A stretch of DNA of 43,026 nucleotides from an uncultured Bacteroidota bacterium (GTDB taxonomy: Bacteria; Bacteroidota; Bacteroidia; Flavobacteriales; Flavobacteriaceae): the NCBI GenBank assembly GCA_902577515.1, contig CACGZJ010000010.1, positions 1 to 43,026 on the forward strand, read 5' to 3'. Positions 25,018-28,205 of the stretch are shown piece by piece. The first letter of the stretch is position 1; the number at the start of each line of letters is the position of its first letter. Under the pieces are notes generated by a model. It was not told where the DNA came from. It searched no databases and saw only the letters and a program-made list of their open reading frames with translations. A program made the translations under genes and the position numbers.

Positions 25018-25480
25018 GATAGTCTCTTATTCAGATAAATACTCCAAGTTCTTTTATGATCTTAATCACAATTGGTTAAGCGAGTATTTTTATGTTGAGC
25101 AATACGATGAAATGATACTCAAAAACTGCAAGGAAGAGATAATTGATAAGGGAGGATACATTTTTTTTGCCTTATATAAAACTGAAGTTGTTGGAACTAT
25201 GGCATTAATTCCAAGAGAAAATAATGTATATGAATTAAATAAAATGGCTGTAAAAAAAGATTTAAGAGGAAATGGAATAGGTCATCAGTTAATAAAATTT
25301 ATAATTGATTATTCTATTAAGAATAATTTTAAATCAGTAATACTTTATTCAAATACTATTTTGAAGAATTCAATTCATCTTTATAATAAGTTTGGATTTA
25401 AAGAAATAGATAATCCAGATGCACCATATAAAAGAAGTGACATAAAAATGGAGTTAAAGTTATCTAATCTTAGAAAATAA
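25007..25480 (+). CDS. GNAT family N-acetyltransferase
   Basis: A 157-residue acetyltransferase. The fold is seen in [21 protein letters not shown] (strands beta3-beta4), [18 protein letters not shown] (the R-x-x-G-x-G acetyl-CoA loop) and [22 protein letters not shown]. The substrate is unknown. The ATG lies inside the end of fumC in another frame (11-base overlap), so it is probably translated by coupling to fumC. The 3' end overlaps the convergent CPBP protease gene by 21 bases. Confidence 0.87.
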
Positions 25481-26362
25481 TTTTTCTTTCCAGTTTGTCC
25501 ATGAATACTTCCTAGCAAAAATAAGTATAACAATTAGGTAAAGTGATAAGGAAACTAGTAAATCCAATGTTTCTAATTCGGGATCAGCTGTATATTTTAA
25601 AATAGATTCAGTTTGAAGAACAGTCCAATCAGCAGTTAAAAGAAGAACACCCATAAGATTTTGAGCAGCATGAAGTCCTAGAGATAGCTCAAGCCCATCA
25701 TCCATTAAAGCGATTATACCTAGTATAAATCCCGCACTTACATATTGAGCTATAAATTTATTACCTAAAGCATCAATTTCAGGATTTGAAAAATGTAATA
25801 ATCCAAATACTGTAGATGATAAGAAAAGAGCCATGAACCTACTATTAAACCAGTTACCGAAACCTTGCATTAAGTATCCTCTAAATACAATCTCTTCAAC
25901 ACTAATCTGAATAGGAATAAGTGAAATAGCAATTATAAATAAAATAATAAACTCCCTTAATTTAAAATTAACTTGATAATCACCTGGATTTAGAGAATAG
26001 TCTATGAAAATTACAGAAGAAATAGCAGTACCCCATATCATAAATGAGTATAAAATTCTTTCAAAATCAATTTTTTTTCTACCAGTTAGAACTGAAATAA
26101 AAGGAAGGTCGTGAAGTTTTGTGATAGTTAACCATATTCCAGGAACAGTAATTGCAAAGGTAATAAGTAGCAAGAAAAGTCTAAGGTTTGATGGAATTCC
26201 CTTCAAAATATCCATTGGGTTAGAATCCGGACTTGGTATTTCTGATGGCAAATAAAACATCAATGGAATTTGACCAAATATATTGAACAAAATAATTACA
26301 AATGATCCTAAAATATAGTACCAAAAATTTTTTAGTTTATAAGATTTATCCCAAAGAAACAT
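25460..26362 (-). CDS. CPBP family intramembrane metalloprotease (CAAX-type/ABI)
   Basis: A 300-residue multi-pass inner-membrane protein with the CPBP (Rce1/ABI, PF02517) motifs: Glu156-Glu157-x3-Arg161 in VEEIVFRGY, His190 in FGLLHFSNP, and His231 with Asn235 in GLHAAQN. Roughly eight hydrophobic segments can be counted. Eukaryotic Rce1 trims prenylated CAAX proteins; bacterial members have varied or unknown jobs. It lies two bases downstream of a PAS-UbiA prenyltransferase fusion and is surely co-transcribed with it. This pairing hints at a shared prenyl-linked or membrane-maturation function, but that is inference. Confidence 0.9.
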   Translation of the reverse strand: MFLWDKSYKLKNFWYYILGSFVIILFNIFGQIPLMFYLPSEIPSPDSNPMDILKGIPSNLRLFLLLITFAITVPGIWLTITKLHDLPFISVLTGRKKIDFERILYSFMIWGTAISSVIFIDYSLNPGDYQVNFKLREFIILFIIAISLIPIQISVEEIVFRGYLMQGFGNWFNSRFMALFLSSTVFGLLHFSNPEIDALGNKFIAQYVSAGFILGIIALMDDGLELSLGLHAAQNLMGVLLLTADWTVLQTESILKYTADPELETLDLLVSLSLYLIVILIFARKYSWTNWKEKLFSKIR

Positions 26363-26364
26363 TA

Positions 26365-27714
26365 TTAAAAATTAGCTAGAATTATCATGTAAATAAAGGA
26401 AAATATCATATGAAAATAAATAGTATGAATATTATACTTGATCAAGGATCTACTATTGTAGTACTTAAATAATCCTGCTATTAAGTAATATGAATAAATC
26501 ATCGTTATTGGAATTAACAAATACAAGAATAATGATCCTTGAGTTTCATTTAGAATATTTTCTGCTATATAATATAGAGATCCTACAGCTAAAGCTAAAT
26601 TAAGTGCATAAATCCATCTTGATATTTTTTTACCCAGAAGAACAACTAAATGATTTTTACCAACTTTTTTGTCTGACTTATAATCAGGATACTGGTTAAT
26701 AAATAGAATATTAGTTGTTAATAGTCCAATTGGAACTCCAATTAAAATTAAATTGTAAAATTCATTTGAAAACAGCTCAATTGTTTCATTAGCAATAGCA
26801 AATCCAGTACCTAATGTTAGTAATGGTCCAAATGAAAGAAAAATCGAGAGTTCTCCTAAACCATATCTGGAAGAAAGTCTTATTGGTTTTGCAGTATAAA
26901 AATATCCAACTAGTACTCCAATTAAGGCAATTATTGCAGCATAATATGCATTAAATGTAGATCCAGTATTTAAATAACTTGTAAATAAAATACCAGCAGC
27001 AGTAATTAAACCTAAAAAAAACATAATATTAGCAAGACTTTTAGTACCCTTTAAAGTTATTAAACCAAGCTCTACTGCCCTACTACCCCCAGATAACTGA
27101 GCACCTTGAAGAATTGTTGAGTCCATACCTGCATTAAAGTATTCCGTATTAGCCTCGTCTGTACCATGCGTTACATCAAAATAGTCATTATATAAGTTTG
27201 AAAATAAGTGAAAGAATAATATTCCAAAAGTAGTAAGAGCAAGAGATAGAGGGTTAAATAGATTATCTCCAATTCCTGCATAATAACATCCTATGGCAAA
27301 AACTGGGAACAAAGAAGCAGAAGCGAAACCAACTCTAGTAATAGCTACACCTTTTATAATTTTAGTAGTAAAGCTTATAGGTATATCAACTTCTTCATCA
27401 ATTACTTCAGTAATACCACAATATCCTGTTTGAGGATTATTCTTTCCATCACCAAAATTTGGGGTTATCTTAATTTTGGCAGCAAATTTTGAACCATCTT
27501 TTCTTATAAAATTGGTTTTGGTAATATGTTCACCTTTTTGATTTGCATCCTTTAACCAACCAAGAACATTTTGAAGGACGATTTCTCCTGGTGAAAAAAT
27601 TGATACTCTTTTTATACCGACTAATTCATCAGAAGGATATCCAAACATTTTGACAGCACCATCATTCATATTCGTAATTAGGCCTTCCATGTCACAGATT
27701 ATTACACTTTTCAT
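26365..27714 (-). CDS. PAS domain fused to UbiA-family prenyltransferase (MenA-like)
   Basis: A 449-residue fusion. Residues 1-105 form a PAS sensor domain (VIICDMEGLITNMNDGAVKMFGYPSDELVG, then RKDGSKFAAKIKI and TGYCGITEV). From about 120 a UbiA prenyltransferase with about nine membrane helices follows. Its first Asp-rich motif is NDYFDVTHGTD at 176-186 and the second is NQYPDYKSDKKVGK at 340-353; YGLGELSIFLSFGP around 284-297 is closest to MenA, which prenylates 1,4-dihydroxy-2-naphthoate. Substrate and PAS ligand are unknown. The PAS domain reads straight into the enzyme with no stop or frameshift, so the fusion is real in this sequence. A -7 box lies upstream, and a CPBP protease follows after two bases. 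Confidence 0.92.
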   Translation of the reverse strand: MKSVIICDMEGLITNMNDGAVKMFGYPSDELVGIKRVSIFSPGEIVLQNVLGWLKDANQKGEHITKTNFIRKDGSKFAAKIKITPNFGDGKNNPQTGYCGITEVIDEEVDIPISFTTKIIKGVAITRVGFASASLFPVFAIGCYYAGIGDNLFNPLSLALTTFGILFFHLFSNLYNDYFDVTHGTDEANTEYFNAGMDSTILQGAQLSGGSRAVELGLITLKGTKSLANIMFFLGLITAAGILFTSYLNTGSTFNAYYAAIIALIGVLVGYFYTAKPIRLSSRYGLGELSIFLSFGPLLTLGTGFAIANETIELFSNEFYNLILIGVPIGLLTTNILFINQYPDYKSDKKVGKNHLVVLLGKKISRWIYALNLALAVGSLYYIAENILNETQGSLFLYLLIPITMIYSYYLIAGLFKYYNSRSLIKYNIHTIYFHMIFSFIYMIILANF

Positions 27715-27733
27715 ATAAAGAATTTTTAGGTGC

Positions 27734-27764
27734 CAAATTTACATTTTGACAAGTTAATATGAAA
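27734..27764 (-). promoter_or_regulatory. Probable promoter of the PAS-UbiA / CPBP pair
   Basis: On the minus strand, a perfect TAnnTTTG (TAAATTTG) at 27741-27734, with TTTC (one mismatch to TTTG) at 27764-27761 and a 19-base spacer. The predicted start near 27727 is about 12 bases before the ATG at 27714. This would uncouple the pair from the dnaK-thioesterase message upstream. Confidence 0.45.
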
Positions 27765-27779
27765 GTTTTTTTTCAAATT

Positions 27780-28205
27780 TTACTTATTTATTGTTAACGT
27801 TGTAAGTTTTGCAAATGAAATATCTTTTCCTTCTTTATTTTTGATTGATATTTTCCAGAGTTGCATTGTTCTTCCCATATGAATTGGTTCAGCTTTTGCA
27901 GTAACAACTCCTTCACTTATACCCCTAACATGATTAATTGATAATTCAATACCTCTTAACATTTGTTTATCTTTTTTTGAAAAAATTGCTGCAGCTGAGC
28001 TTCCAACTGTTTCTGCTAATGCAGCAGTAGCTCCACCATGAAGAACACCTGCAGGCTGATGAAGCTTTGGGGTGACTTGCATTTCAGCTACTAAGAAAGT
28101 TTCACCAACATCTATAAATTCTATATCAAGAGTTGAAACAAGAGTCCCCTTACACCTATCGTTTGCTTCTTTGAGAATAAACTTTTTTAATTTCTTATCA
28201 ATCAA
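27780..28205 (-). CDS. PaaI-like hotdog thioesterase, TTG start
   Basis: A 141-residue acyl-CoA thioesterase of the PaaI/YdiI group. The signature is HQPAGVLHGGATAALAETVGS (from His49), with His56-Gly-Gly and Glu65 in the usual catalytic positions. Such enzymes hydrolyse aryl- or acyl-CoA; related YdiI-type members act on 1,4-dihydroxy-2-naphthoyl-CoA in menaquinone synthesis, but the substrate here is not readable. Its frame has a TAG (the dnaK stop itself, 28209-28211) just two codons before the TTG at 28205, so no ATG start is possible. TTG at 28205 is the best choice. It is three bases behind dnaK. Confidence 0.88.
   Translation of the reverse strand: MIDKKLKKFILKEANDRCKGTLVSTLDIEFIDVGETFLVAEMQVTPKLHQPAGVLHGGATAALAETVGSSAAAIFSKKDKQMLRGIELSINHVRGISEGVVTAKAEPIHMGRTMQLWKISIKNKEGKDISFAKLTTLTINK

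Follow-up and report, generated by a model that had tools for sequence, protein, structure and literature searches.

A 43,026-nucleotide stretch of DNA from an uncultured Flavobacteriaceae bacterium (GenBank assembly GCA_902577515.1, contig CACGZJ010000010.1; hereafter, the window) encodes a protein in which an N-terminal PAS sensor domain is fused to a UbiA-type prenyltransferase (Table 1). We observe that the fusion is conserved in numerous Bacteroidota, with both Asp-rich motifs of the UbiA enzymes intact, that the markers of quinone headgroup synthesis searched for are absent from nearly all its bearers, that MenG (UbiE), the enzyme of the last step of menaquinone synthesis, is frequently retained, and that the genes flanking the fusion are homologous to men genes of related bacteria. 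The interpretation we prefer, to which we assign about an even chance, is that the locus is a collapsed men operon whose PAS-UbiA product attaches the prenyl tail to an exogenous headgroup, for instance 1,4-dihydroxy-2-naphthoate (DHNA), that the cell makes by neither known menaquinone route.

The fusion gene starts with ATG and runs without interruption over 449 codons. Both parts of the product exceed the cut-offs of their Pfam models, UbiA at residues 137-411 (74.7 bits; cut-off 34.2) and PAS_9 at residues 3-92 (35.3 bits; cut-off 27); the former, with the two Asp-rich motifs, places the protein in the UbiA prenyltransferase superfamily, and the latter, with the PAS fold, identifies the sensor domain. 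The motif residues N173, N176, D177, D180, D186, N340, D344, D348 and K353 are invariant in all 51 aligned fusions. The AlphaFold2 model (mean predicted local distance difference test score 85.0, predicted template modelling score 0.81) shows a complete PAS fold followed by a UbiA domain made entirely of helices, with residues 192-209 predicted at low confidence; in the model, about 10 residues appear to join the PAS domain to the first membrane helix. The original prediction, made from the letters of the window, of an uninterrupted PAS-UbiA frame with both Asp-rich motifs is thus borne out, and an assembly artefact is rejected because an open frame is present in all 50 genomes examined beyond the genus of the window and in 19 of 20 within it.

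The spread of the fusion was followed in two genome sets. The first comprises the genome of the window together with 59 relatives, 60 in all: 20 belong to the same genus as the window, 2 are members of another family that carry the fusion, and 38 lack it. The full fusion is present in all 20 genomes of the genus (70-100% identity; 19 open frames) and in the 2 genomes of the other family (57% identity); the remaining 38 relatives do not have it. A scan of a genome collection yielded 127 confirmed fusion loci, of which 80, with best segments 52-95% identical, were kept; all bear Bacteroidota titles, mostly of uncultured organisms, and span at least two orders, with Marinoscillum, a member of Cytophagales, in addition to Flavobacteriales. 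The isolate names suggest that the bearers are marine. Fifty-seven loci were taken as lying outside the genus (identity of at most 66%); leaving out L170, L172, L196, L200, L202, L204 and L210, these provide the second, wider set of 50 fusion genomes. The two sets overlap by one genome (G054 = G105), which gives 71 distinct fusion genomes. Several individual loci are unusual. In L053 (G013), from a two-contig assembly, the frame is broken by many stops. Locus L047 has a second, broken PAS-like stretch upstream of an intact fusion (G003:C89:18784-19026; 59% identity to residues 1-80, four stops). A Flammeovirgaceae metagenome-assembled genome (G093) holds two fusion frames on different contigs (L206 and L210), either a duplicate or a mixed bin, and L223 is the least similar fusion kept. 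Literature searches with PAS and UbiA prenyltransferase terms found no earlier PAS-UbiA or otherwise sensor-fused prenyltransferase, only unrelated fungal work.

With one exception, the bearers of the fusion lack the markers of menaquinone head synthesis that were searched for. In profile searches, MenB exceeds its cut-off in none of the 71 distinct fusion genomes (0/22 in the first set and 0/50 in the wider set), MqnA/MqnD of the futalosine route in a single one (0/22 and 1/50), and MenD in none of the 22 fusion genomes of the first set, to which the MenD search was confined. All 38 relatives without the fusion hold a head marker: MenB in 31, MqnA/D in 6 and, in one (G034), MenD without the other two. 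Neither the classical Men pathway, as marked by MenB and MenD, nor the futalosine pathway (MqnA/D in 1/71) is thus recognized in the bearers. A MenB hidden below the cut-off is rejected: the weaker matches are crotonase-like frames (at most 152 bits) or frames of about 800 residues, and crotonase-like frames of the same kind also occur beside true MenB in relatives (at most 158 bits). Because 20 of the 22 fusion genomes of the first set belong to one genus, these are not 22 independent events; the 50 others extend the pattern to a second order. A CtaB-type UbiA frame, assigned by score and length, is present in 44 of the 50 genomes of the wider set, so that incompleteness is an unlikely cause of the absence of MenB. 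A different partial pathway occurs within the same order in G051, whose 0.3 Mb genome keeps MenB, a UbiA and MenG and has no MenD match. Among the papers listed in broader literature searches, none concerns, by its title, marine Bacteroidota without a quinone pathway; a search on streamlined flavobacteria and quinones returned unrelated work only, and in the passages searched this group goes unmentioned.

The fusion is also the sole MenA-like enzyme recognized in these genomes by sequence comparison. The MenA model search of the window's own genome returns the fusion only, below the cut-off. The UbiA proteins of the bearers comprise the fusion, a CtaB-type protein and, in some genomes, a third type. 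Ten of 15 further UbiA genes were scanned; nine best match prenyltransferase or GGGP-geranylgeranyltransferase models and one a decaprenyl-phosphate phosphoribosyltransferase model, all below cut-off, and none of the ten matches a MenA model at an E-value of 1e-8. No separate menA is therefore recognized, the other classified UbiA proteins being CtaB-type by score and length or matching DGGGP-synthase-like or phosphoribosyltransferase models; 13 UbiA matches (L245, L249, L255, L257, L258 and eight weak or partial ones) are left unclassified. In all 6 fusions scanned, the best NCBIfam model on the UbiA side is a DHNA polyprenyltransferase or a naphthoquinone phytyltransferase, below cut-off. 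The original prediction of a MenA-like, PAS-fused prenyltransferase in a quinone context is supported.

In a phylogenetic tree, a selection of 19 fusions, drawn from the window and the 80 loci, falls into a single clade (support 99/95), and 15 MenA sequences of related Bacteroidota together with the Enterobacter MenA form another (99/99); the program warns of long branches, so that the deep placement is unsure. The idea that the resident menA simply acquired a PAS domain is rejected with the same reservation, given that the UbiA part belongs to a different clade. The fusion, below every MenA model cut-off and outside the MenA clade, does not belong to the curated MenA class and may nevertheless work like MenA.

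MenG exceeds its cut-off in 45 of the 71 distinct fusion genomes (13/22 and 33/50), with 11 of the 20 genomes of the genus and both genomes of the other family included, and in 37 of the 38 relatives without the fusion. In L179 (9225-9947) and L180 (461-1153), its gene immediately precedes the fusion, in the same orientation and about 50 bases away. DHNA salvage would show head genes lost and both prenyltransferase and MenG kept; in the bearers, the head markers searched for are absent, and MenG is kept in 45/71 genomes and absent from 7/7 of the Marinoscillum type. Aerobic respiration needs a quinone, and the cytochrome oxidase subunit III genes identified by eye in the window's genome suggest that its organism respires aerobically. 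From these observations, we infer the acceptor, its uptake, the product and the control by PAS as follows. The cell would take up an exogenous quinone headgroup, most simply DHNA, and the UbiA domain would join it at the membrane to a polyprenyl diphosphate at the two Asp-rich motifs. Where MenG is present, as in most lineages, it would methylate the product to yield menaquinone for respiration. The PAS domain might gate the enzyme according to supply or redox state, by means of a flavin, a pair of thiols, or a headgroup or quinone bound to it.

The gene order in the window is dnaK (assigned by eye), a hotdog thioesterase, the fusion and a CPBP-family intramembrane protease. A likely origin of this arrangement emerges from the surroundings of the true MenA in relatives, for which nine regions were compared (L224-L232); in these, MenA, MenB and MenD were identified by profile and menF and menC by eye. 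Four of these (L226, L227, L228 and L230) have the order thioesterase, menF, menD, menB, menA, menC, CPBP; L229 has menB, menA, menC and CPBP; L225 combines men genes with the thioesterase and no CPBP; L224 has men genes without either; and in L231 and L232, menA lies outside any such operon. Profiles built from the neighbours of the fusion match the operon CPBP in 5/9 of the regions, with E-values of 4e-95 to 3e-123; for the thioesterase of the operon, the figure is likewise 5/9 (6e-57 to 1e-61). Given this homology, the thioesterase-fusion-CPBP locus looks like a men operon stripped of its head-making genes, with a distinct PAS-UbiA protein in the place of menA, and the CPBP pairing seems, on the same comparison, to predate the fusion.

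The PAS domain is more conserved than the enzyme to which it is attached: for 37 fusions (less than 90% alike), mean pairwise identity is 68.5% for PAS (residues 3-104) and 60.7% for the UbiA part (residues 125-386). Hence, the domain is not degenerate, a possibility raised at the outset, and its conservation suggests that it could control the tailing step itself. In the same 37 fusions, neither a cysteine of the light-oxygen-voltage (LOV) NCRFLQ type nor a conserved histidine haem ligand, motifs that we take to mark these two modes of sensing, the only ones covered, is seen; H63 is present in 12/37, and the conserved cysteines are those at positions 7 (invariant) and 99 (36/37) only. The model places C7 on the first strand of the PAS domain (27403-27714) and C99 on its last, and the two might form a redox pair. 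Sequence and fold searches for a hint of the ligand returned general PAS matches only; a designed circular tendon repeat protein, which headed the profile matches, is a spurious result. No literature on quinone-binding PAS domains was found.

Several observations weigh against the salvage of a DHNA-like head. The MenA models are missed by wide margins (TIGR00751, 55.7 against a cut-off of 102.15 bits; the PRK06080 models, 37-69 against 264-522 bits), and the stem of the fusion clade measures 2.35 changes per column; these failures to reach any MenA cut-off, together with a long-stemmed clade of its own, mean that the acceptor may differ from that of MenA. MenG is missing in 9 of the 20 genomes of the genus and in 0/7 Marinoscillum/Flammeovirgaceae genomes is it found, all 7 of which have a CtaB-type frame; this lineage might leave its quinone unmethylated or start from a methylated head. 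One fusion genome, G109, the source of L223, combines MqnA/D with the fusion. The absence of the head pathway was judged by MenB, MenD and MqnA/D, in genomes that are incomplete. The thioesterase is often kept even though its presumed substrate, DHNA-CoA, should not exist, and among the nine menA regions, 4/9 lack CPBP and 4/9 lack the thioesterase. Finally, in the part of the report on quinone-auxotrophic bacteria cited here, one of seven auxotroph strains tested grew without supplement (PMC9704088).

It is unlikely, though far from negligible, that the bearers make their own headgroup, possibly for a different quinone, by a route not yet described, with the fusion as its dedicated prenyltransferase and the thioesterase releasing the head from a CoA thioester. 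Such a route would accommodate the distinct UbiA clade, the need for quinol implied by the cytochrome oxidase genes and the thioesterase itself, which exceeds the cut-off of TIGR00369 (the EntH and MenI models stay below theirs), lies 65 bases upstream of the fusion and is absent from the original prediction. This gene is kept without MenB in 48/80 fusion loci, including 17/20 of the genus, but was not found in the other 32/80, two of which have no gene upstream on the contig. Of the three genus loci without it, one is cut by the contig end and two have another gene there, a 302-residue frame (MNRRKFN...; L046, 479-1387; L047, 481-1389). The cited portion of a 2026 survey notes lineages devoid of the known pathways and then says that other quinones may await discovery (PMC13386864). 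Against a home-made head, neither the 30 commonest neighbour families nor 13 loci inspected by eye showed a gene for making it, with no systematic search made.

A UBIAD1-like exchange of side chains on exogenous K vitamins or quinones from phytoplankton or neighbours, in place of DHNA prenylation, is improbable. Among UbiA relatives of solved structure, UBIAD1 gives the best sequence match (E-values of 6e-5 for the whole sequence and 0.0093 for the stretch) and the first fold match of the predicted model, and the lack of MenG in 7/7 Marinoscillum-type genomes is what an already methylated head would lead one to expect; however, the sequence match is weak, few UbiA enzymes are among the matches from the Protein Data Bank, and MenG is kept in 45/71 genomes and adjoins the fusion in two.

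Still less probable is the wider idea of the original prediction, prenylation of a protein or a non-quinone lipid with the CPBP protease as processing partner. The window's CPBP starts with ATG 2 bases past the fusion stop, as predicted, and belongs to the CPBP/Rce1-like family (57.7 bits; Pfam cut-off 22.4). It is the next gene in 61/80 fusion loci, in most of which the two genes share one base or are no more than 22 apart, and in 20/20 loci of the genus; the predicted EExxxR and HxxxN patterns both occur in 58/63 CPBP frames beside fusions, two of the five misses being fragments of one broken frame (L184), and the lone histidine in 38/63 by a loose ad hoc pattern. Yet no CPBP was found in 18/80 loci, chiefly Marinoscillum-type and distant Flavobacteriales, the homologues of this protease reside in the men operons of relatives, which argues for a role other than the cleavage of prenylated CAAX proteins, and no other MenA-like enzyme is recognized in the bearers. 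A literature search found nothing that links a CAAX protease to menaquinone in Flavobacter-type bacteria. What stands of the earlier interpretation is a conserved MenA-like PAS fusion with a CPBP neighbour in a quinone context; its link to protein prenylation through CPBP is not supported. That an ordinary men pathway exists and was missed because the single-cell or metagenome-assembled genomes are incomplete is hardly credible, with MenB at 0/71 while the CtaB-type frame is present in 44/50 and MenB is matched in 31/38 non-fusion relatives, even if completeness is 72-95% in the genus and no figure is given for the 50 others.

The remaining features of the locus are listed in Table 1. The original prediction placed a -7 box ahead of the gene pair, and a box TAAATTTG that fits the Bacteroidota -7 promoter motif is located there. 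Across the window, this pattern shows no enrichment (67 occurrences against 71.75 expected). In a comparison that covered 25 of the 80 loci, the box starts 25-30 nucleotides before the ATG in 17/18 close relatives and 24-38 nucleotides before it in 4/7 distant ones, a constancy that makes it probably real. In five Marinoscillum-type loci (L188, L206, L211, L214 and L221), inspected by eye, a histidine-phosphatase-like gene touches or overlaps the end of the fusion, with a gene resembling type III pantothenate kinase on the upstream side. A small pterin-carbinolamine-dehydratase-like frame, also identified by eye, is found downstream of the fusion in L218 (11289-11615) and L223 (11389-11610).

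Table 1. Features of the PAS-UbiA locus in the window
Feature	Position	Strand	Basis
CPBP (Rce1-like) intramembrane protease gene, 300 aa	25460..26362	-	PF02517 over cut-off; homologous to men-operon CPBP of relatives
PAS-UbiA fusion gene, 449 aa	26365..27714	-	Open reading frame scan, Pfam, relatives, alignment, AlphaFold2
UbiA prenyltransferase domain, residues 115-449	26368..27372	-	PF01040 over cut-off; fold like UBIAD1, AfUbiA and ApUbiA; own clade
Second Asp-rich motif NQYPDxxSDxxxGK, residues 340-353	26656..26697	-	Motif and alignment
First Asp-rich motif NDYFDxxxGTD, residues 173-189	27148..27198	-	Motif and alignment
PAS domain, residues 1-104	27403..27714	-	PAS_9 over cut-off; complete PAS secondary structure
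Bacteroidota -7 promoter box TAAATTTG before fusion, probable	27734..27741	-	Position of the pattern in relatives
Hotdog thioesterase gene (MenI/EntH-like), 141 aa, TTG start	27780..28205	-	PF03061 over cut-off; homologous to first men-operon gene

On the broadest scale, we tentatively propose, at clearly less than an even chance, that marine Bacteroidota of at least two orders gave up both known head pathways and respire with a quinone of undescribed head source. The head would be either exogenous and shared or the product of a new route, whether to a known quinone or to a new one, and the quinone would be built by a single PAS-gated prenyltransferase that has spread widely, perhaps by horizontal transfer. 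If the bearers cannot make the quinone head, they would depend on a shared, vitamin K-like metabolite, and this dependence would help to account for their uncultured state; if they make the head in some other way, there is a quinone pathway still to be discovered. In either case, the fused sensor would offer a direct handle on the control of the tailing step, and a prenyltransferase under such direct control would be without an earlier case found in the literature.

The components of the fusion have counterparts among known proteins. MenA, as represented by the TIGR00751 and PRK06080 models, has in common with it the UbiA fold, both motifs and the best-matching curated models, whereas the fusion falls below all MenA cut-offs, forms a separate clade and carries the N-terminal PAS domain. 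The fold is also common to UBIAD1 (8djk) and the archaeal UbiA homologues (4tq4, 4od4), with template modelling (TM) scores of 0.64-0.75 by target length, but the identity is 14-20% and those proteins have no PAS domain. The PAS domain resembles in fold those of Colwellia CPS_1291 (3lyx), NifL, which binds FAD (2gj3), and Aer (8dik), with TM-scores of about 0.7-0.8; here, it is fused to a membrane enzyme.

Quinone auxotrophy is known among lactic acid bacteria such as group B Streptococcus. In the cited part of a study of one of these bacteria, Lactiplantibacillus plantarum, a member of Firmicutes, has an incomplete menaquinone pathway and uses exogenous DHNA, and no sensor fusion is reported there (PMC10746273). 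Within Bacteroidota, the passages cited from PMC9704088 describe Porphyromonas pasteri as missing five men genes, keeping the two final ones and requiring DHNA or menaquinone-4 (MK4); Porphyromonas pasteri and some strains of P. gingivalis and Tannerella have lost the head-making men genes and kept the prenyltransferase and UbiE/MenG, most tested strains need DHNA or menadione, and menA in these auxotrophs is a single scattered gene. The bearers described here differ in that the prenyltransferase belongs to another clade, is fused to PAS and is often flanked by the thioesterase and CPBP; these bacteria look both marine and aerobic, and some of their lineages lack MenG. Partial menaquinone pathways are thus known; what appears new, as judged from sequence, is a PAS-fused prenyltransferase of a separate clade in such a setting.

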